A stretch of 64,000 nucleotides of DNA, taken from contig NZ_JBBEOG010000002.1 in assembly GCF_037860835.1 (NCBI RefSeq), positions 124,001 through 188,000 on the forward strand. Direction: 5' to 3'. A model generated the notes under the pieces. That model saw only the letters and a program-made list of their open reading frames with translations, was not told the origin of the DNA and searched no databases. The translations under genes and the position numbers were made by a program. This DNA is from Aquipuribacter nitratireducens (GTDB taxonomy: Bacteria; Actinomycetota; Actinomycetes; Actinomycetales; JBBAYJ01). Positions 12,194 through 42,207 of the stretch are shown here, piece by piece; the first letter of the stretch is position 1, and every line of letters begins with the position of its first letter.

Positions 12194-13337
12194 GCGGCCA
12201 CCGTAGGCCCGCCGCCCGTCAGTCGGGTGCTTCTGTCGGGGGTGGGGCGGCAGACTGCCGCCGTGGACCTGCCTGTCATGCCGCCCGTCAAGCCGATGCT
12301 CGCGAAGCCCGGCGACGGCATCCCGCCCGGTCACCTCTACGAGCCGAAGTGGGACGGCTTCCGGGCGATCGTGTTCCGCGACGGCGACGAGGTCGTCATC
12401 GGCAGCCGCAACGAGCGGCCTCTCACCCGCTACTTCCCGGACGTCGTGGCCGCGGTCCTCGACGCGTTCCCGGAGCGTGCGGTCGTCGACGGGGAGGTCG
12501 TCGTCGCCGACACCGCCCGCAACCGGCTCGACTTCGAGGCGCTCCAGCAGCGCATCCACCCCGCCGACAGCCGCGTCCGGCTGCTCGCGGAGCAGACGCC
12601 CGCGGCGTTCGTCGCGTTCGACCTGCTCGCGCTCGGCGACGAGGACCTCACCCAGCGACCCTTCGCCGAGCGCCGCGAGCGGCTCGAGCAGGTGCTGCCC
12701 GCCGACCACCCGTCCGTCCACGTCACGCCCGCCACGAGCGACGAGGCCGAGGCCGCCCGCTGGTTCGAGGTCTTCGAGGGGGCGGGCCTCGACGGGCTCG
12801 TCGCGAAGAAGCCGGACCTGCGCTACCAGCCGGACAAGCGCGTCATGACGAAGGTGAAGCACGTGCGGACCGCCGACTGCGTCGTCGCGGGCTACCGGGT
12901 CCACAAGTCCGGTCCCGACGCGCTCGGCTCGCTCCTGCTCGGGCTGTACGACGACGACGGGACGCTGCAGAGCGTCGGCGTCTGCGGCAGCTTCACGATG
13001 GCGCGGCGGCGCGAGCTCCTGCAGGAGATGCAGGAGCTCGTGACGGACCTCGACGAGCACCCGTGGAACTGGGCGGCGCACGAGGCGGGGGAGCGCACGC
13101 CCCGCAAGAACGAGCAGAGCCGCTGGAACGCCGGCAAGGACCTGTCGTTCGTCCCGTTGCGGCCCGAGCAGGTGGTCGAGGTCCGCTACGACTACATGGA
13201 GGGGACCCGGTTCCGGCACACGACGCAGCTCGTGCGGTGGCGCCCGGACCGGGAGCCGCGCAGCTGCACGTACGACCAGCTGGAGACCCCGGTCCGCTTC
13301 GACCTCACCGACGTCCTCACAGGGCCGGGTGTGACGA

Positions 13338-23802: not shown

Positions 23803-24360
23803 TCAGTCGCGGTCCGGGTCCGGGTGCAGGGCGTAGAAGAACGACCACGGCTCGCCCCGCGGGTCGCGGGCGTGCACCCGGTACTCCTCCGCGAGGGCGT
23901 GGAGACGCTCGGCGAGCTCGGCCTGCTGGTCCGGGGTGAGGCGGAGGCCGAGCCGGGCCATCGGGAAGTCGCGCGCGGGGGAGCGGGTGACGCCGTCGAC
24001 GAAGGACTGGACGAGCGCGTTGTCGCCGCCGCTGCCGTCGATCCACCACGACTTCCCCGTGGCGCGGTAGGGCCGGGGGCGGGAGCCGCGCGGGCCGCGC
24101 TCGGCCGGGAGGGCCTCGAGGAAGCCGGTGTCGACGAGCGTGCGGACGTGGTGCAGGACCGTCGCCGGTGCCATCCCGAGCCGCTCGGCGAGCCGGGCGT
24201 TGGTCTGCGGCACGTCGAGGCACATGCGGAGGATCCGCAGCCGGAGGCCGGAGGCGAGTGCCCGCGCCTCGGCGTCCGTCGGGGGGCGGCGCGTGGCGGC
24301 GTCGTGCGGCTCGTCCCGCGGCTCGTCCCGCGGCTCGTCGTGCGCCGGGGTGCTCGCCAC
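23803..24360 (-). CDS. winged-helix transcriptional regulator (ArsR-like)
   Basis: 185 residues with a basic winged helix near residues 30-95: ALASGLRLRILRMCLDVPQTNARLAERLGMAPATVLHHVRTLVDTGFLEAL. The C-terminal half (SWWIDGSGGDNALVQSFVDGV, LRLTPDQQAELAERLHALAEEYRVHA) resembles the effector or dimer region of ArsR-type regulators often paired with transporters. The GTG at 24360 is chosen because it sits six bases after TACCCT, a leaderless arrangement; the frame is open further upstream. Divergent from an MFS gene across a 68-base region holding a dyad, so it probably represses both. Confidence 0.82.
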   Translation of the reverse strand: MASTPAHDEPRDEPRDEPHDAATRRPPTDAEARALASGLRLRILRMCLDVPQTNARLAERLGMAPATVLHHVRTLVDTGFLEALPAERGPRGSRPRPYRATGKSWWIDGSGGDNALVQSFVDGVTRSPARDFPMARLGLRLTPDQQAELAERLHALAEEYRVHARDPRGEPWSFFYALHPDPDRD

Positions 24361-24389
24361 GGCGCCAGGGTACCCGCAGGGCAGTGACC

Positions 24390-24407
24390 GATTGACTCTT
24401 CCCAATC
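24390..24407. promoter_or_regulatory. candidate operator between the regulator and the MFS transporter
   Basis: Dyad GATTG, eight bases, CAATC. It covers the MFS -35 TTGACT (24392-24397), which is followed 18 bases later by GACCCT (24416-24421) and, seven bases on, by the GTG at 24429. On the other strand TACCCT (24372-24367) serves the regulator, and the dyad sits at its -35 position. One bound dimer could shut both promoters. Confidence 0.5.
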
Positions 24408-24428
24408 AGTCGCGCGACCCTGAGCGCC

Positions 24429-25760
24429 GTGACCGCTCCGCACGACGTCCGTCCGCCCGGTGAGGCTGCCGGCGGGCGCCTGCGCCGCTGGTACCGGCAG
24501 AGCCTCGTCGGGCACCCCGTGGGTCGGGACTTCCGGCAGCTGTGGATCGGCGACACCATCGGCCAGGTCGGCACGCAGGTCGGCACGATCGCGCTGCCGC
24601 TGCTCGCGGTGTCCGTGCTCGGGGCGGGCGAGTGGGAGATGGGCCTGCTTGCCACGTCGGAGAACCTCGCGTTCCTCCTCGTGGGCCTGCCGGCGGGCGC
24701 GTGGGTCGACCGGATGCGCAAGCGTCACGTGCTCGTCTGGGGCGACGTCGTCCGCGGGGTCGCGCTGCTGTCGTTGCCGGCGGCGTGGCTGCTCGGTGTC
24801 CTCAGCTTCCCGCTCGTGCTGGCGGTCGCGGTCGTCATGGGCGTCGCGACGGTGTTCTTCGACGTCGCGTACCAGAGCTACCTGCCCTCGCTCGTGCCGT
24901 CGTCGCGGATCAGCGAGGGCAACGCCAGGCTCCAGGTGTCCCACTCCGCCGCCCAGGTCGCCGGCCCGGGGCTCGGCGGCGGCCTCGTCGGCCTCGTCGG
25001 CGCCCCGCTCGTCCTCCTCGCCGACGCGGTGTCGTTCCTCGGGTCCGTCGTCTTCACCCTGCGGATCCGGCACCGCGAGGAGCCGCCGCCTCGGGAGGGT
25101 CGCCGCCCCCTGCACGTCGAGATCGGCGAGGGGCTCGGGTTCGTCCTGCGCCAGCCGCTCCTGCGCCGCATCGTGGCGACGACGGCGCTGTCGAACTTCG
25201 CGAGCAACATCGGCGGGGCGCTGCTCGTGCTCTACGTCGTCCGCGACCTCGGGCTCTCGGAGGCGCAGCTCGGACTGGTCCTCAGCGTGGGGGCGATCGG
25301 CGGCCTGGTCGGTGCCGTCGCCTCCGGCGCCGTCATGCGGCTGCTCGGCGAGGGGCGCACGATCGCGCTGGTGATCGTGCCCGCGTCGGGGGCGGCGGCG
25401 CTCGTGCCGCTGGCGGCGGGCCGGGACACGGTCGTCGCGTTCGCGCTGCTCGCGGTGTCCATGGCGGTGTACGGCTTCGGGGTGGTCGTCTACAACGTCG
25501 CGCAGGTGTCGTTCCGGCAGCGGCTGTGCCCTGCCCCGCTGCTCGGCAGGATGAACGCCTCGGTCCGCTTCATCGTGTGGGGCGTGACGCCGATCGGGGC
25601 CTTCGTCGGCGGCGTCGTCGGGGCGCAGGCCGGGATCCTCACCGCCCTGTGGCTCGGCGTGGCCCTCGAGCTCGTCGCGGTCCTGCCCGTGCTGCTGAGC
25701 CCGCTGCTGCGGATGCGCGACCTGCCCCGCGGTCTGGACGCCCACGCGGCGGCCCCCTGA
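24429..25760 (+). CDS. MFS transporter (enterobactin-exporter/macrolide-efflux-like)
   Basis: 443-residue major facilitator with about twelve helices. Seen: DFRQLWIGDTIGQVGTQVGTIALPLLAVSVLGAGEWEMGLLATSENLAFLLVGLPAGAWVDRMRKRHVLVWGDVVRG, the motif A loop (GAWVDRMRKR), and the second half beginning near RRIVATTALSNFASNIGGALLVLYVVRDLGL. This is the MFS_3 pattern of exporters such as EntS and MefA; the substrate is unknown. GTG start without ribosome binding site, preceded by a -35/-10 pair under a dyad. Its TGA is immediately followed by the first copy of the 31-base repeat. Confidence 0.9.
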   Translation: MTAPHDVRPPGEAAGGRLRRWYRQSLVGHPVGRDFRQLWIGDTIGQVGTQVGTIALPLLAVSVLGAGEWEMGLLATSENLAFLLVGLPAGAWVDRMRKRHVLVWGDVVRGVALLSLPAAWLLGVLSFPLVLAVAVVMGVATVFFDVAYQSYLPSLVPSSRISEGNARLQVSHSAAQVAGPGLGGGLVGLVGAPLVLLADAVSFLGSVVFTLRIRHREEPPPREGRRPLHVEIGEGLGFVLRQPLLRRIVATTALSNFASNIGGALLVLYVVRDLGLSEAQLGLVLSVGAIGGLVGAVASGAVMRLLGEGRTIALVIVPASGAAALVPLAAGRDTVVAFALLAVSMAVYGFGVVVYNVAQVSFRQRLCPAPLLGRMNASVRFIVWGVTPIGAFVGGVVGAQAGILTALWLGVALELVAVLPVLLSPLLRMRDLPRGLDAHAAAP

Positions 25761-25840
25761 GTCTGCGTTTCTGTCGACGTCCGGCACGGATGTCTGCGTT
25801 CTTGTCGACGTCCGGCACGGATGTCTGCGTTTCGGTCACC
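25761..25840 (+). repeat. left array: three 18-bp cores at 31-bp period
   Basis: Core GTCTGCGTTTCTGTCGAC at 25761-25778, repeated with two mismatches at 25792-25809 and with three at 25823-25840. The two 13-base spacers are identical (GTCCGGCACGGAT), and each can fold as TCCG-gca-CGGA, extendable to eight-base arms with core bases. The array starts at the base after the MFS stop codon. Inverted with respect to the array at 26322-26401. Confidence 0.9.
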
Positions 25841-25879
25841 GAGGACACGGGCCCAGCGGAGCGGCCTGCCCGATCTGAC

Positions 25880-25902
25880 CGGTGTGCACCGATCTGTTGA
25901 CA
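25880..25902 (+). promoter_or_regulatory. promoter with adjacent palindrome for the small secreted protein
   Basis: TTGACA at 25897-25902 is a consensus -35; CAGCAT 16 bases later is a possible -10. Just upstream the 12-base palindrome CGGTGTGCACCG (25880-25891) could bind a regulator. The coding ATG is at 25978 behind a gagaggga ribosome binding site. Confidence 0.45.
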
Positions 25903-25977
25903 CATGTCGGGACCGGGGCAGCATGGGGCGCGGTCGGCGCCGACCCGCGGTGCCGACCGGACGAGAGGGAGACCCCC

Positions 25978-26307
25978 ATGCGTGTCCTCACGACCACCGC
26001 GCTGGCCGGCGGCGTCGCCGCAGCAGCCGTCCTCGGCCTCGGCGCCGCCCCCGCCTCGGCGGACCACGTCCACTTCCGGGTCCTCGGGAACGGCGACTGC
26101 GTGCTCCTCGCCCCCGACGGCGGCGAGAAGCACGTCCAGCTGCCGAACGCCGACGGCTTCGCCGACAACCGCAAGCACCCGCTCCACGTCAAGGTGCACC
26201 TCGGCACCCCAGGCAGCGTCGGCGAGATCTACGTCGCCTACCCGGCCTCCGGCGTCCTCAACCCCGAGGCCGTCGAGCTGTGCGGCGGGGAGTTCGTCAA
26301 CGGCTGA
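25978..26307 (+). CDS. small secreted protein of unknown function
   Basis: 109 residues. Sec signal peptide with cleavage after ASA at 26-28, leaving an 81-residue mature protein DHVHFRVLGNGDCVLLAPDGGEKHVQLPNADG and so on. Two cysteines (41 and 102) could form one disulfide bridging start and end of the domain; six histidines in the first half of the mature chain (30, 32, 52, 67, 70, 74) hint at metal binding but prove nothing. ATG behind gagaggga. Codon use matches the host. It is the only gene inside the inverted 31-bp-period repeats. I do not recognise the family. Confidence 0.75.
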   Translation: MRVLTTTALAGGVAAAAVLGLGAAPASADHVHFRVLGNGDCVLLAPDGGEKHVQLPNADGFADNRKHPLHVKVHLGTPGSVGEIYVAYPASGVLNPEAVELCGGEFVNG

Positions 26308-26321
26308 CCGACCGCGCCCAC

Positions 26322-26401
26322 GTCGGCAGAACTGCAGACGTACGGCGCGTAGGTCCACAGAAACGCAGACGTACGGCGCGTAGGTCGACAGAAACGCAGA
26401 C
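26322..26401 (-). repeat. right array: three inverted 18-bp cores at 31-bp period
   Basis: Reading the minus strand from 26401: the core is identical to the left outermost copy at 26401-26384, has one mismatch at 26370-26353 and three at 26339-26322. The two 13-base spacers are identical to each other (CTACGCGCCGTAC on this strand) but differ from the left-hand spacer. They keep the fold TACG-cgc-CGTA, so one C-G pair on the left is an A-T pair here. The array lies between the small gene and the convergent korB stop. Confidence 0.9.
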
Positions 26402-26413
26402 GTCGCGGCGCGG

Positions 26414-27517
26414 TCAGACCGTCCAGGTGTCCTGACCCGCGAGCAGCGCGTCCAGGTCGGCGTCCGTCGCCGGGCCACCCGCCGCCGAGACGGCCGCGTC
26501 GACCTGGGCGCGGACGAGGTCGTCGTACGCGGGGCGCTGCACGGAGCGGAACACGCCGAGCGGGACGTGGCCCATCGCCGTGTCGTCCAGGCGCGACAGC
26601 GCGAAGGCGGCCGAGGGGTCGTCCGCGGCCGGGTCGTGGACGACGGGCGTCCGGCCGCTGGCGTGCGCGACGTCCCGCGAGACCACCTCGACCCCGCCGC
26701 CGTCGCGGCGCGGCACGACGACCTGCGCGCGACCGTCCGACCCGCCGAAGGTGACCTCCTCGCCGGCGCGGAGGCGCACGAGCCGCGCGGCGGCCTCGTC
26801 CTTGTCCTTGAGGACGTCGAAAGCGCCGTCGTTGAAGATCGGGCAGTTCTGGTAGATCTCGACGAACGCGCTGCCGCGGTGCTCCGCCGCGGCCCGCAGC
26901 ACCTCGGTGAGGTGCGCGCGGTCCGAGTCGAGCGTGCGCGCGACGAACGTCGCCTCCGCGCCGAGCGCGAGCGAGACCGGGTTGAACGGCCCGTCGACGG
27001 AGCCCGCCGGGGTCGACTTCGTCACCTTGCCGGTCTCCGAGGTCGGGGAGTACTGGCCCTTCGTCAGCCCGTAGATGCGGTTGTTGAACAGCAGGATCGT
27101 GACGTTGAGGTTGCGGCGCAGGGTGTGGAGCAGGTGCCCGGCCCCGATCGACAGGGCGTCGCCGTCGCCGGTCACGACCCACACGTTGAGGTCCGGGCGC
27201 GACACCGCGAGGCCGGTCGCGAACGTCGGGGCGCGGCCGTGGATGGAGTGCACGCCGTACGTGTCGAGGTAGTACGGGAAGCGCGAGGAGCACCCGATCC
27301 CGGAGACGAAGACGAGGTTCTCCCGCTTCACCTGCAGGTCGGGCAGGAAACCCTGGACGGCCGCGAGCACGGCGTAGTCGCCGCAGCCGGGGCACCAGCG
27401 GACCTCGTTGTTCGCGACGAAGTCCTTCCGGGTGAGGCTCTCGCCCTCCGACAGGGTGGGCACGCCCCGCAGGCCCTGGCCGGGGCCGACCTGCGGCAGG
27501 CCGAGGTCGATGCTCAT
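26414..27517 (-). CDS. korB: 2-oxoacid:ferredoxin oxidoreductase, beta subunit
   Basis: Thiamine-diphosphate subunit of a 2-oxoglutarate (or pyruvate) ferredoxin oxidoreductase, 367 residues; the complex decarboxylates a 2-oxoacid to acyl-CoA and reduces ferredoxin. Seen: EVRWCPGCGDYAVLAAVQ, GIGCSSRFPYYLDTYGVHSIHGRAPTFATG, and the ThDP motif VVTGDGDALSIGAGHLLHTLRRNLNVTILLFNN, then the 2-oxoglutarate-type YGLTKGQYSPTS. Overlaps the korA stop by four bases and is coupled to it. The QYSPTS and length match KorB, which provides an oxygen-tolerant 2-oxoglutarate route in actinobacteria. Confidence 0.94.
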   Translation of the reverse strand: MSIDLGLPQVGPGQGLRGVPTLSEGESLTRKDFVANNEVRWCPGCGDYAVLAAVQGFLPDLQVKRENLVFVSGIGCSSRFPYYLDTYGVHSIHGRAPTFATGLAVSRPDLNVWVVTGDGDALSIGAGHLLHTLRRNLNVTILLFNNRIYGLTKGQYSPTSETGKVTKSTPAGSVDGPFNPVSLALGAEATFVARTLDSDRAHLTEVLRAAAEHRGSAFVEIYQNCPIFNDGAFDVLKDKDEAAARLVRLRAGEEVTFGGSDGRAQVVVPRRDGGGVEVVSRDVAHASGRTPVVHDPAADDPSAAFALSRLDDTAMGHVPLGVFRSVQRPAYDDLVRAQVDAAVSAAGGPATDADLDALLAGQDTWTV

Positions 27518-29475
27518 GCGTGGCTCCCTTCGCTGACGCGGACGCTGCCGTTGGTGCCGCGGGCGGCCGCGCTGCCGTTGGTGAAGCGGCGGGCCGTCGG
27601 TTGCGGCGGCGCGTGGCGTACGGCGTCGCCGATGGCCTGCTCGAGCTCACCGGAGGTGAACGGCAGGCCGCGGACGCTGGTGTGGCTGTGGACGTCGACG
27701 AGGTAGCGGGCCCGCAGCAGCAGCGCGAGCTGGCCGAGGTTCATCTCCGGCACGAGGACGCGCGGGTACGCGCGCAGGACGTCGCCGGTGTCGGCGGGGA
27801 ACGGGTTGAGGTGGCGCAGGTGCGCCTGTGCGACCCGCAGGCCGTTCGCCCGTGCCGCGCGCACGGCGGCGCTGATCGGCCCGAACGTCGAGCCCCAGCC
27901 GAGGACGAGGAGGTCGGCGCCCTCGCTGCCGTGCGACCCGTCGGCCCACGGGTCGTCGACCTCCAGGTCGGGGACGGCGACCCCGTCGACCTTCGCCTGG
28001 CGCAGCCGCACCATCCGGTCGTGGTTGTCGGGGTCGTAGCTGATCTCGCCGGTGCCGTCGGCCTTCTCCAGGCCGCCGATGCGGTGGGCGAGCCCGGGCG
28101 TGCCGGGGACCGCCCACGGCCGGGCGAGGGTGCCGGGGTTGCGGGAGTAGGGCCGGAACTGCTCCTCCTCCGGCACGTCGTCCGCGCTCGCGAAGCGCGG
28201 CCGCAGCCGCGGCAGGTCCGCCACCGAGGGCAGCCGCCACGGCTCGGAACCGTTCGCGAGGTAGCCGTCGGACAGCAGGATGACGGGCGTCATGTACGTG
28301 AGCGCGATCCGCGCCGCCTCGCGGGCCGCCTCGAAGCAGTCGGCCGGCGTCGCGGCGGCGACGACCGGGAGGGGTGCCTCGCCGTGGCGGCCGAACAGCG
28401 CCTGCAGGAGGTCCGCCTGCTCGGTCTTCGTCGGCAGGCCGGTGCTCGGTCCGCCGCGCTGGACGTCGACGAGCACGAGCGGCAGCTCGAGCGCGACCGC
28501 GAGGCCGAGCATCTCCGCCTTGAGGGACAGGCCCGGCCCGGACGTCGTCGTGACGCCGAGCGCCCCGCCGTAGGCCGCGCCGAGCGCCGCGCCGATGCCG
28601 GCGATCTCGTCCTCCGCCTGGAGCGTCGTCACGCCGAAGCGCTTGAGACCGGACAGGGTGTGGAGGATGTCGGAGGCCGGCGTGATGGGGTACGAGCCGA
28701 GCACGAGCGGCAGGCCGCTCGTGTGCGCGGCCGACACCAGGCCGTAGGCGAGCGCGACGTTGCCGGTGACGTTGCGGTACGTGCCGGACGCGGCCGGCGC
28801 GGGCGCCACCTCGTAGCGGACGGCGAACGTCTCCGTCGTCTCCCCGAACGACCAGCCGGCCTCGAGGGCGCGGAGGTTCGCCTCGAGGATCTGCGGGCGG
28901 TGCCCGAACTTCGTCTCGAGGAAGCGGCGCGTGCCGTCCGTCGGGCGCGAGTACAGCCACGACAGCAGCCCGAGGGCGAACATGTTCGTCGAGCGCTCGG
29001 CGTCCTTGCGGCCGAGGCCGAGCTCGGTGAGCGCCTCGACGGTCATCGACGTGAGCGGGACCGCGTGCACCTGGTAGGCCGCGAGGGAGCCGTCCTCGAG
29101 CGGGTCGGACGCGAAGCCGACCTTCTGCAGCGCCCGTGTGGTGAAGGCGTCGGAGTCGACGACGAGCGTGGCCCCGTGCGGCACGTCCGGCAGGTTCGCC
29201 TTGAGCGCGGCGGGGTTCATCGCGACGAGCACGTCGGGGGCGTCGCCGGGGGTGAGGACGTCGTGGTCGGCGAACTGCACCTGGAAGCTCGAGACACCGG
29301 GCAGCGTGCCGGCGGGGGCGCGGATCTCGGCCGGGAAGTTCGGCAGGGTCGCGAGGTCGTTGCCGAGCGCGGCCGTCTCGGCGGTGAAGCGGTCGCCGGT
29401 CAGCTGCATGCCGTCGCCGGAGTCCCCCGCGAAGCGGATGACGACATGGTCGAGCGGGGTGGCGGCTGAGGACAT
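27514..29475 (-). CDS. korA: 2-oxoacid:ferredoxin oxidoreductase, fused gamma-alpha subunit
   Basis: 653 residues. The N-terminal gamma domain (residues 1-195) begins VIRFAGDSGDGMQLTGDRFTAETA; the alpha domain follows from about 225 (TGNVALAYGLVSAAHTSGLPLVLGSYPITPASDILHTLSGLKRFGVTTLQAEDEIAGIGAALGAAYGGALGVTTTSGPGLSLKAEMLGLAV) and ends with a transketolase-C-like part. This fused layout is standard for actinobacterial KorA. ATG at 29475 with gagagg upstream. With KorB it should feed succinyl-CoA and reduced ferredoxin. Divergent from htpX across about 200 bases. Confidence 0.94.
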   Translation of the reverse strand: MSSAATPLDHVVIRFAGDSGDGMQLTGDRFTAETAALGNDLATLPNFPAEIRAPAGTLPGVSSFQVQFADHDVLTPGDAPDVLVAMNPAALKANLPDVPHGATLVVDSDAFTTRALQKVGFASDPLEDGSLAAYQVHAVPLTSMTVEALTELGLGRKDAERSTNMFALGLLSWLYSRPTDGTRRFLETKFGHRPQILEANLRALEAGWSFGETTETFAVRYEVAPAPAASGTYRNVTGNVALAYGLVSAAHTSGLPLVLGSYPITPASDILHTLSGLKRFGVTTLQAEDEIAGIGAALGAAYGGALGVTTTSGPGLSLKAEMLGLAVALELPLVLVDVQRGGPSTGLPTKTEQADLLQALFGRHGEAPLPVVAAATPADCFEAAREAARIALTYMTPVILLSDGYLANGSEPWRLPSVADLPRLRPRFASADDVPEEEQFRPYSRNPGTLARPWAVPGTPGLAHRIGGLEKADGTGEISYDPDNHDRMVRLRQAKVDGVAVPDLEVDDPWADGSHGSEGADLLVLGWGSTFGPISAAVRAARANGLRVAQAHLRHLNPFPADTGDVLRAYPRVLVPEMNLGQLALLLRARYLVDVHSHTSVRGLPFTSGELEQAIGDAVRHAPPQPTARRFTNGSAAARGTNGSVRVSEGSHA

Positions 29476-41022: not shown

Positions 41023-41037
41023 CTCTGCGAGCGGCCG

Positions 41038-42207
41038 TCAGAACAGCTGCTCGAGCGAGTCGTCGGACAGCACCTGGTCGATGACCATCGTCGCCGCTCC
41101 GATGACGGCGGCCCGACCACCGGTCCGTGACGTGACGATCCGCAGGTGCTGCGTGGCCAGCGGCAGGGAGCGGCGGTAGACGACCTCCCGGATGCCGGCG
41201 AGCAGGTGGTCACCGGCGCCCGCGAGGCTGCCGCCGATGACGACGACGGAGGGATTGAGCAGGTTGACGCAGGTGGCGAGGACGGCGCCCAGGGAGCGTC
41301 CGGCCTCGCGGACCGCGGCCGACGCCTCGGCGTTGCCCGACCGGACGAGGGCGACGACGTCGACGCTGGAGTGGACGTCGAGGCCGGACGCGGCGAGCCG
41401 CCGCGCGACGGTCTGCCCGCTCGCGAGCGCCTCGAGGCACCCGGTGTTGCCGCACGTGCACAGCACGTCGTCCCCGCCCGGCACGGCGACGTGGCCGAGG
41501 TCGCCGGCCGCACCCTGCGCGCCCCGGCGGATCGCCCCGTCGCTCACGAGTCCGGCGCCGATGCCCGTCGCTACCTTGACGAAGAGGAGGTGGTCGACGT
41601 CGCGGAGCCCGGCGGCGTGCTCGCCGAGCGCCATGATGTTGACGTCGTTGTCGACGAGGACCGGCACCTTCCCCAGCCGCTGCTGGAGGAAGCCGCGGAC
41701 GTCGGCCTGGTCCCATCCCGGCATGATCGGCGGGCTGATGGGCCGGCCGGACTCGTGGTCGACCGGCCCGGGCAGACCGACGCCGACGCCGACGAGGTCG
41801 CTCTGGACGCGACCGGTCTGGGACACGAGGGCGGTCACGACGTCGGCGACGCGGCCGAGGACGACCTCGGGGCCGTCGGTGATGTCGATGTCCTCCGACT
41901 GCTCGACGAGCACGGTCGCGCCGAGGTCGGTGAGCGCGATGCGCGAGTGCGTGGCCCCGAGGTCGACCGCGGCCACGAGCCGGGCCGCCGGGTTGAAGGC
42001 GAACGTCGCCGGAGGGCGCCCGCCGGTCGACACGGCGCCGCCCCCGGGGGCGAGCAGCCCAGCCGAGAGCAGCTGGTCGATCCGCTGCGCGATGGTCGAG
42101 CGGGCCTGGCCGGTCACGGTGGCCAGCTCGGCGCGGGTGCGGGGGCGGCCGTCGCGCAGCAGCTGCAGCGTCGCCCCCAGGTCCGTGGGCCGGCTGCTGA
42201 TGCTCAT
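41038..42207 (-). CDS. ROK-family sugar-responsive repressor
   Basis: 389 residues. N-terminal winged helix (ATLQLLRDGRPRTRAELATVTGQARSTIAQRIDQLLSAGLLAPGG) fused to a ROK kinase-like domain: AAVDLGATHSRIALTDLG, GVGVGLPGPVDHESGRPI, DNDVNIMALGEHAAG, and the zinc site CTCGNTGCLEALASG. Such proteins repress sugar genes until a sugar or sugar phosphate binds. ATG at 42207 lies six bases after TTCACT (42219-42214), itself 17 bases after CTGACG, a leaderless promoter. Divergent from the ABC sugar importer, with a dyad in between, so it most likely controls both. Confidence 0.9.
   Translation of the reverse strand: MSISSRPTDLGATLQLLRDGRPRTRAELATVTGQARSTIAQRIDQLLSAGLLAPGGGAVSTGGRPPATFAFNPAARLVAAVDLGATHSRIALTDLGATVLVEQSEDIDITDGPEVVLGRVADVVTALVSQTGRVQSDLVGVGVGLPGPVDHESGRPISPPIMPGWDQADVRGFLQQRLGKVPVLVDNDVNIMALGEHAAGLRDVDHLLFVKVATGIGAGLVSDGAIRRGAQGAAGDLGHVAVPGGDDVLCTCGNTGCLEALASGQTVARRLAASGLDVHSSVDVVALVRSGNAEASAAVREAGRSLGAVLATCVNLLNPSVVVIGGSLAGAGDHLLAGIREVVYRRSLPLATQHLRIVTSRTGGRAAVIGAATMVIDQVLSDDSLEQLF

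Follow-up and report, generated by a model that had tools for sequence, protein, structure and literature searches.

A young family of short extragenic repeats on a 31-bp grid, probably serving or tolerated as transcript-end hairpins, from two congeneric actinobacterial species

The two repeat arrays that enclose a small gene in the window (the whole 64,000-nucleotide stretch of DNA analyzed here) are best read as belonging to a family of short, dispersed, extragenic repeats that is lineage specific, REP-like, untagged, and transposase-less and that amplifies in tandem. The arrays probably serve, or are tolerated, as hairpins at transcript ends, and we give somewhat better than even chances to the fuller reading of a spreading family that is kept as such hairpins. 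Why should this family be of interest? It is young and apparently still spreading, and a repeat-free congener is at hand for comparison. It also belongs to a phylum outside those in which REPs have mostly been described and does without the usual REP transposase. It thus makes two processes testable: the colonization of new sites without RAYT and a possible takeover of the job of transcription terminators.

The window contains six 18-bp cores at an exact spacing of 31 bp, three on the + strand and three on the - strand. Six sequences lie within three mismatches of the consensus GTCTGCGTTTCTGTCGAC, compared with 0.05 expected (100 dinucleotide-preserving shuffles, largest count 2), and the positions and period given in the preliminary description stand. 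The features are as follows.

24429..25760, + strand: MFS transporter gene (PF07690, E 1.6e-33)
25761..25778, + strand: left array core 1, exact consensus
25779..25791, + strand: left 13-bp spacer, GTCCGGCACGGAT
25792..25809, + strand: left array core 2, 2 mismatches
25810..25822, + strand: left 13-bp spacer, second copy of GTCCGGCACGGAT
25823..25840, + strand: left array core 3, 3 mismatches
25978..26307, + strand: gene for a probably secreted 109-aa protein
26310..26324, + strand: left arm, GACCGCGCCCACGTC, of the closing hairpin of the right array (fold -56.9 kcal/mol, z -3.7)
26322..26339, - strand: right array core 3, 3 mismatches
26340..26352, - strand: right 13-bp spacer, GTACGGCGCGTAG on the + strand
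26353..26370, - strand: right array core 2, 1 mismatch
26371..26383, - strand: right 13-bp spacer, second copy of GTACGGCGCGTAG on the + strand
26384..26401, - strand: right array core 1, exact consensus
26399..26415, + strand: right arm, GACGTCGCGGCGCGGTC, of the closing hairpin
26414..27517, - strand: korB-like gene, 2-oxoacid:ferredoxin oxidoreductase beta subunit (PF02775, PorB_KorB)

As had also been claimed, the outermost cores are identical and the innermost two carry three mismatches each (0, 2, and 3 mismatches to the consensus for the cores starting at 25761, 25792, and 25823; 3, 1, and 0 for those at 26322, 26353, and 26384), and the 13-bp spacers are constant within an array and differ between the two. 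The TGA stop of the MFS gene (25758-25760) directly adjoins core 1 of the left array. The stop of korB, a gene whose closest counterpart outside the genus is 71% identical, is followed after 12 bp by core 1 of the right array, and the left arm of the closing hairpin begins 3 bases past the stop of the 109-aa gene. Most arrays of the family are found near stop codons, behind their neighbor genes, and hence the mirror-image layout in the window: each array stands in sense orientation behind its own neighbor, the MFS gene on the + strand and korB on the - strand.

How widely is the repeat dispersed? The assembly that contains the window (G000; 3.83 Mb, of which 1.65 Mb was read as stretches) has 37 matches to the core at up to three mismatches, compared with 1 to a reversed control; among the weakest single matches, a few sit inside genes and are probably due to chance. 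About 30 units are spread over about 12 sites, where they stand alone, form inverted pairs, or make up arrays of two to five. The congener G001 has 63 core matches at up to two mismatches, with arrays that reach 11 direct units, and a second congener, G002, has none at that threshold. Among 396 genomes of the order, a sequence-only model built on the 49-nt core-spacer-core unit found 13 matches in G000, 25 in G001, and elsewhere only isolated, single, weak ones; in a class sample of 395 genomes, it found G000 alone at E 1e-4. The tandem pattern had no match in the genomes of 84,980 species, a collection from which own or very near records may be missing, and the repeat had none in the plasmids and phages searched. 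A loose pattern gave three matches in viral contigs, all isolated and chance-like on inspection. Rfam yielded no match for the repeat, and no description of it was found in the literature. The hint in the preliminary description of a general element is borne out in two species of the genus only.

Each unit combines an 18-bp core, in which two GTCGAC-like half sites surround a conserved hexamer, with a spacer of 13 bp that contains an inner CG-NNN-CG dyad. Across 142 units, the sequence of the core is GTC-[TG][GA]-C-[GA]-TT-[CT][CG]-TG-[TC]-CGAC, the left half site being GTCTGC or GTCGAC and the right one GTCGAC or GCAGAC, while the spacer consensus is GTACG-NNN-CGTAC with a nearly fixed inner CG..CG. 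Neighboring cores lie exactly 31 bp apart in 101 of 105 cases (24/25 in G000 and 77/80 in G001), even where the second core is inverted, as it is in only 4 of the 101. Inverted core pairs are found at C6:163217, a perfect 49-nt palindrome, and at L059 and L071. The alternating 62-bp higher-order repeats of L056 and L068 are a sign of tandem duplication. A diverged array that the core pattern misses, also with 62-bp steps, lies between two genes in G001 (L101:3838-4150; G001:C31).

Core and spacer identities are 0.91 and 0.82, respectively, within an array, 0.85 and 0.65 between arrays of one genome, and 0.81 and 0.52 between genomes. At position 10 of the core, T prevails in the arrays of G000 and C in those of G001 (p 5e-4). 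Since units are more alike within arrays than between arrays or genomes and position 10 is biased by species, the arrays seem to undergo concerted evolution within each species. Orthologous arrays hold 5 versus 8, 4 versus 5, 3 versus 2, and 3 versus 1 units in G000 and G001, a comparison that covers two species, with genes about 80 to 85% identical, rather than strains.

Where do the units lie relative to genes? With genes called by a simple codon-usage caller, most arrays are 0 to 60 bp past a stop codon, with copies at many unlinked sites, and they are almost never found in promoters. Convergent gaps make up 10% of intergenic bases and hold six of the nine multi-unit G000 arrays with clear neighbors (p 7e-5 by intergenic bases; 0.0015 by number of gaps). 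At L077:4018-4066, the perfect 49-nt palindrome occupies, in frame, the final codons of a methyltransferase-like open reading frame (ORF), to the C terminus of which it would append about 20 repeat-encoded residues. A spacer copy at L071:4019-4031 in G001 provides the TAG stop of the upstream gene. Also in G001, a 5-unit array and a possible small lipoprotein ORF lie between two divergent genes (L064:3973-4405); the counterpart in the window (12194-12235) is only a short gap without an array.

Comparison of the congeners reveals occupied and empty sites. Between MFS and korB, G000 carries the left array (three units), the 109-aa gene, and the right array (three units). G001 has a left array of two units and the gene, lacks the right array, and leaves 15 bp between gene and korB. 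G002 offers the empty site, with neither array nor gene, the two reading frames 36 bp apart, and a strong hairpin across the MFS stop. A second mirror pair, at C2:417 kb, flanks a gene on both sides in G000 and G001; in G002, the gene is present, the arrays are absent, and the first gap contains a long inverted repeat. At the site of a ParA-type gene, G000 has three units, G001 a single degenerate one, and G002 ordinary hairpins; at the L083 site, an array in G000 corresponds to a gap only a few bases long in G001. Arrays of at least one unit are present in G001 and absent from G000 at 12.2 kb and 41.0 kb of the window and at C1:104.7 kb, C1:167.5 kb, and C3:480.2 kb. Genes that are adjacent in the window (41024-41051) are split in G001 (L103; G001:C9:111500-128500) by an island of roughly 14 kb that carries sugar-transport and extracellular-protein genes. 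Both ends of this island are same-orientation arrays of the repeat, and no integrase or recombinase is evident from its gene listing.

How might units come to be kept at gene ends? A single unit would settle near the end of a gene and then be amplified in tandem via slippage or unequal recombination. In RNA, the self-complementary half sites and spacers could form long hairpins by which the transcript would be terminated or protected, and these would take the place of the ordinary terminator-like hairpins that repeat-free G002 shows at the corresponding sites. Of the three suggestions in the preliminary description, that of RNA elements with a role in terminating or protecting transcripts has the strongest backing, given the location at 3' ends, the enrichment in convergent gaps, the strong folding, and the G002 hairpins. 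The best pointer to such a role is that G002 has ordinary hairpins at all three of the sites examined there (MFS, the ParA-type gene, and C2:417 kb), which are a small sample. The G000 arrays in convergent gaps fold with z of -2.5 to -5.0, like the better convergent gaps of the genome; without arrays, convergent gaps have a median z of -1.7 and a lower quartile of -3.9, and divergent gaps have -0.4. Convergent gaps commonly carry hairpins anyway.

Other results weigh against this role, namely, almost no covariation in the spacers and no U-tract. The 4-base stems TCCG/CGGA and TACG/CGTA do exist, and the compensatory change between them is real for the pair of arrays in the window, but it is not general. 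Among 60 distinct 49-nt core-spacer-core units, pairing is hardly above that of column shuffles (82.3% versus 81.3% in total), spacer positions 1/13 being unpaired in 28 units and 2/12 in 25. The covariation score is 0.160 versus 0.137, with 11 of 500 shuffles reaching it, and the consensus folding energy is only -1.1 kcal/mol. Two alternative RNA hairpins tested by covariation showed little or none, and the folds of two expanded G001 arrays are no stronger than those of their shuffles. With so little covariation, so small a consensus energy, and shuffle-like folds in G001, the hairpins may be a mere consequence of dyad-symmetric sequence. The terminator pattern of a G+C-rich hairpin with a U-tract had no match in 24000-28000 of the window, where hairpins are strong. 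The L064 array between divergent genes also counts against a transcript-end role, and a strong ordinary hairpin beside the array at C12:29.4 kb in G000 means that an array need not be the sole hairpin.

Are there other ways to account for the arrays? The preliminary description also raised a structured miniature element with a passenger gene; read as a mobile element, it would end in the two arrays and carry the 109-aa gene (25978-26307). The product of this gene has a signal-peptide-like start and matches no Pfam or NCBIfam family; in a set of 198 order genomes, it is present only in G000 and G001 (88% identical). In favor of such an element, gene and both arrays are absent from the 36-bp interval in G002. 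However, the same flanks do not travel with the gene: G001, the only other one of those genomes with the protein, has the left array alone, with 15 bp from the gene to korB. Arrays also stand at many sites without a common gene, and the gene inside the second mirror pair stands in G002 free of arrays. Left array, gene, and right array thus have separate histories. A single mobile element enclosing the gene was therefore rejected, and we regard this reading as scarcely credible.

A neutral or selfish minisatellite, the units of which spread without use and survive at gene 3' ends as insertion elsewhere is harmful, is a possible but rather unlikely explanation. The repeat is missing from G002 and every other genome sampled, copy number and sites vary between two congeners, the 62-bp higher-order repeats show tandem duplication, and covariation is not clear, all as this reading would have it. 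However, the core is kept between genomes (0.81), in contrast to the diverging spacers (0.52), and the 31-bp register outlasts spacer turnover, which suggests constraint, though homogenization could also explain it. The protein-binding array suggested from the window is retained as a candidate because of the register in 101 of 105 neighbors, which includes inverted cores. Here the GTCGAC half sites, spaced 12 and 19 bp apart, would be putative cooperative sites of a nucleoid or regulatory protein. The period is about three helical turns, the TT..TG center is conserved and non-palindromic, and dyad symmetry without clear covariation is expected of a DNA site. We nevertheless consider it improbable: absence from G002 argues against a conserved chromosomal function, the arrays are at gene ends and almost never at promoters, no candidate protein was found, and tandem duplication alone also preserves register within an array. 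More doubtful still is a self-spreading, transposase-less, protein-bound lattice on the three-helical-turn grid that colonizes gene ends and promotes the exchange of gene islands between arrays.

How does the family compare with known systems? With CRISPRs it shares regular short repeats at constant spacing, but its spacers are near identical within arrays (0.82; identical in the window arrays), it occupies dozens of sites, and no cas genes are among the neighboring genes scanned. MIRU minisatellites have longer units, of 77 to 101 bp. Like the repeat, they are dispersed intergenic tandem repeats of varying copy number in an actinobacterium (PMC3635867); the 49-nt model matched nothing else in the class sample. 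The inverted core pairs at C6:163217, L059, and L071 recall REPINs with RAYT (PMC3116915), but such pairs are a minority here, and the RAYT/Y1 transposase (PF01797) is absent from G000, G001, and G002, whereas five control genomes match.

A close likeness is to REP elements, the GTAG- and CGTC-tagged repetitive extragenic palindromes (PMC3733652). These too are dyad units of 20 to 40 nt, dispersed in tens of copies near gene 3' ends, mostly between convergent or unidirectional genes; they sometimes provide a stop codon or occupy the end of an ORF, and those of the CGTC super-family likewise lack a dedicated transposase (PMC3733652). The location downstream of genes, mainly convergent or unidirectional ones, is shared by the repeat. 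CGTC REPs, however, have a stem of 8 to 9 bp starting with A-T pairs, a loop of 4 to 5, and a CCA tail (PMC3733652), whereas the stem here starts GAC/GTC, with G-C first, and is followed by a loop of 3 and then TGC. In that super-family, an unpaired CGTC (or TGTC) tag stands at one end of the stem. The TGTC of the core does precede the spacer hairpin here, but it shares bases with the half site GTCGAC and is itself able to pair. No GTAG tag (by alignment), CCA tail, or RAYT gene accompanies the repeat, and in place of the head-head dimers that dominate among CGTC REPs, in which head-tail pairs are negligible, there are head-to-tail arrays at a fixed 31 bp, with the few inverted neighbors noted above. 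As stem and tail, dimer orientation, and RAYT all differ, the repeat is not filed as a REP, and it has been found only in two species of a single actinobacterial genus. By analogy in place, size, and copy number, it would nonetheless work like REP elements; what we rate as distinctive among known short dispersed extragenic repeats is its fixed 31-bp grid, its recent spread, and its having no known mover.
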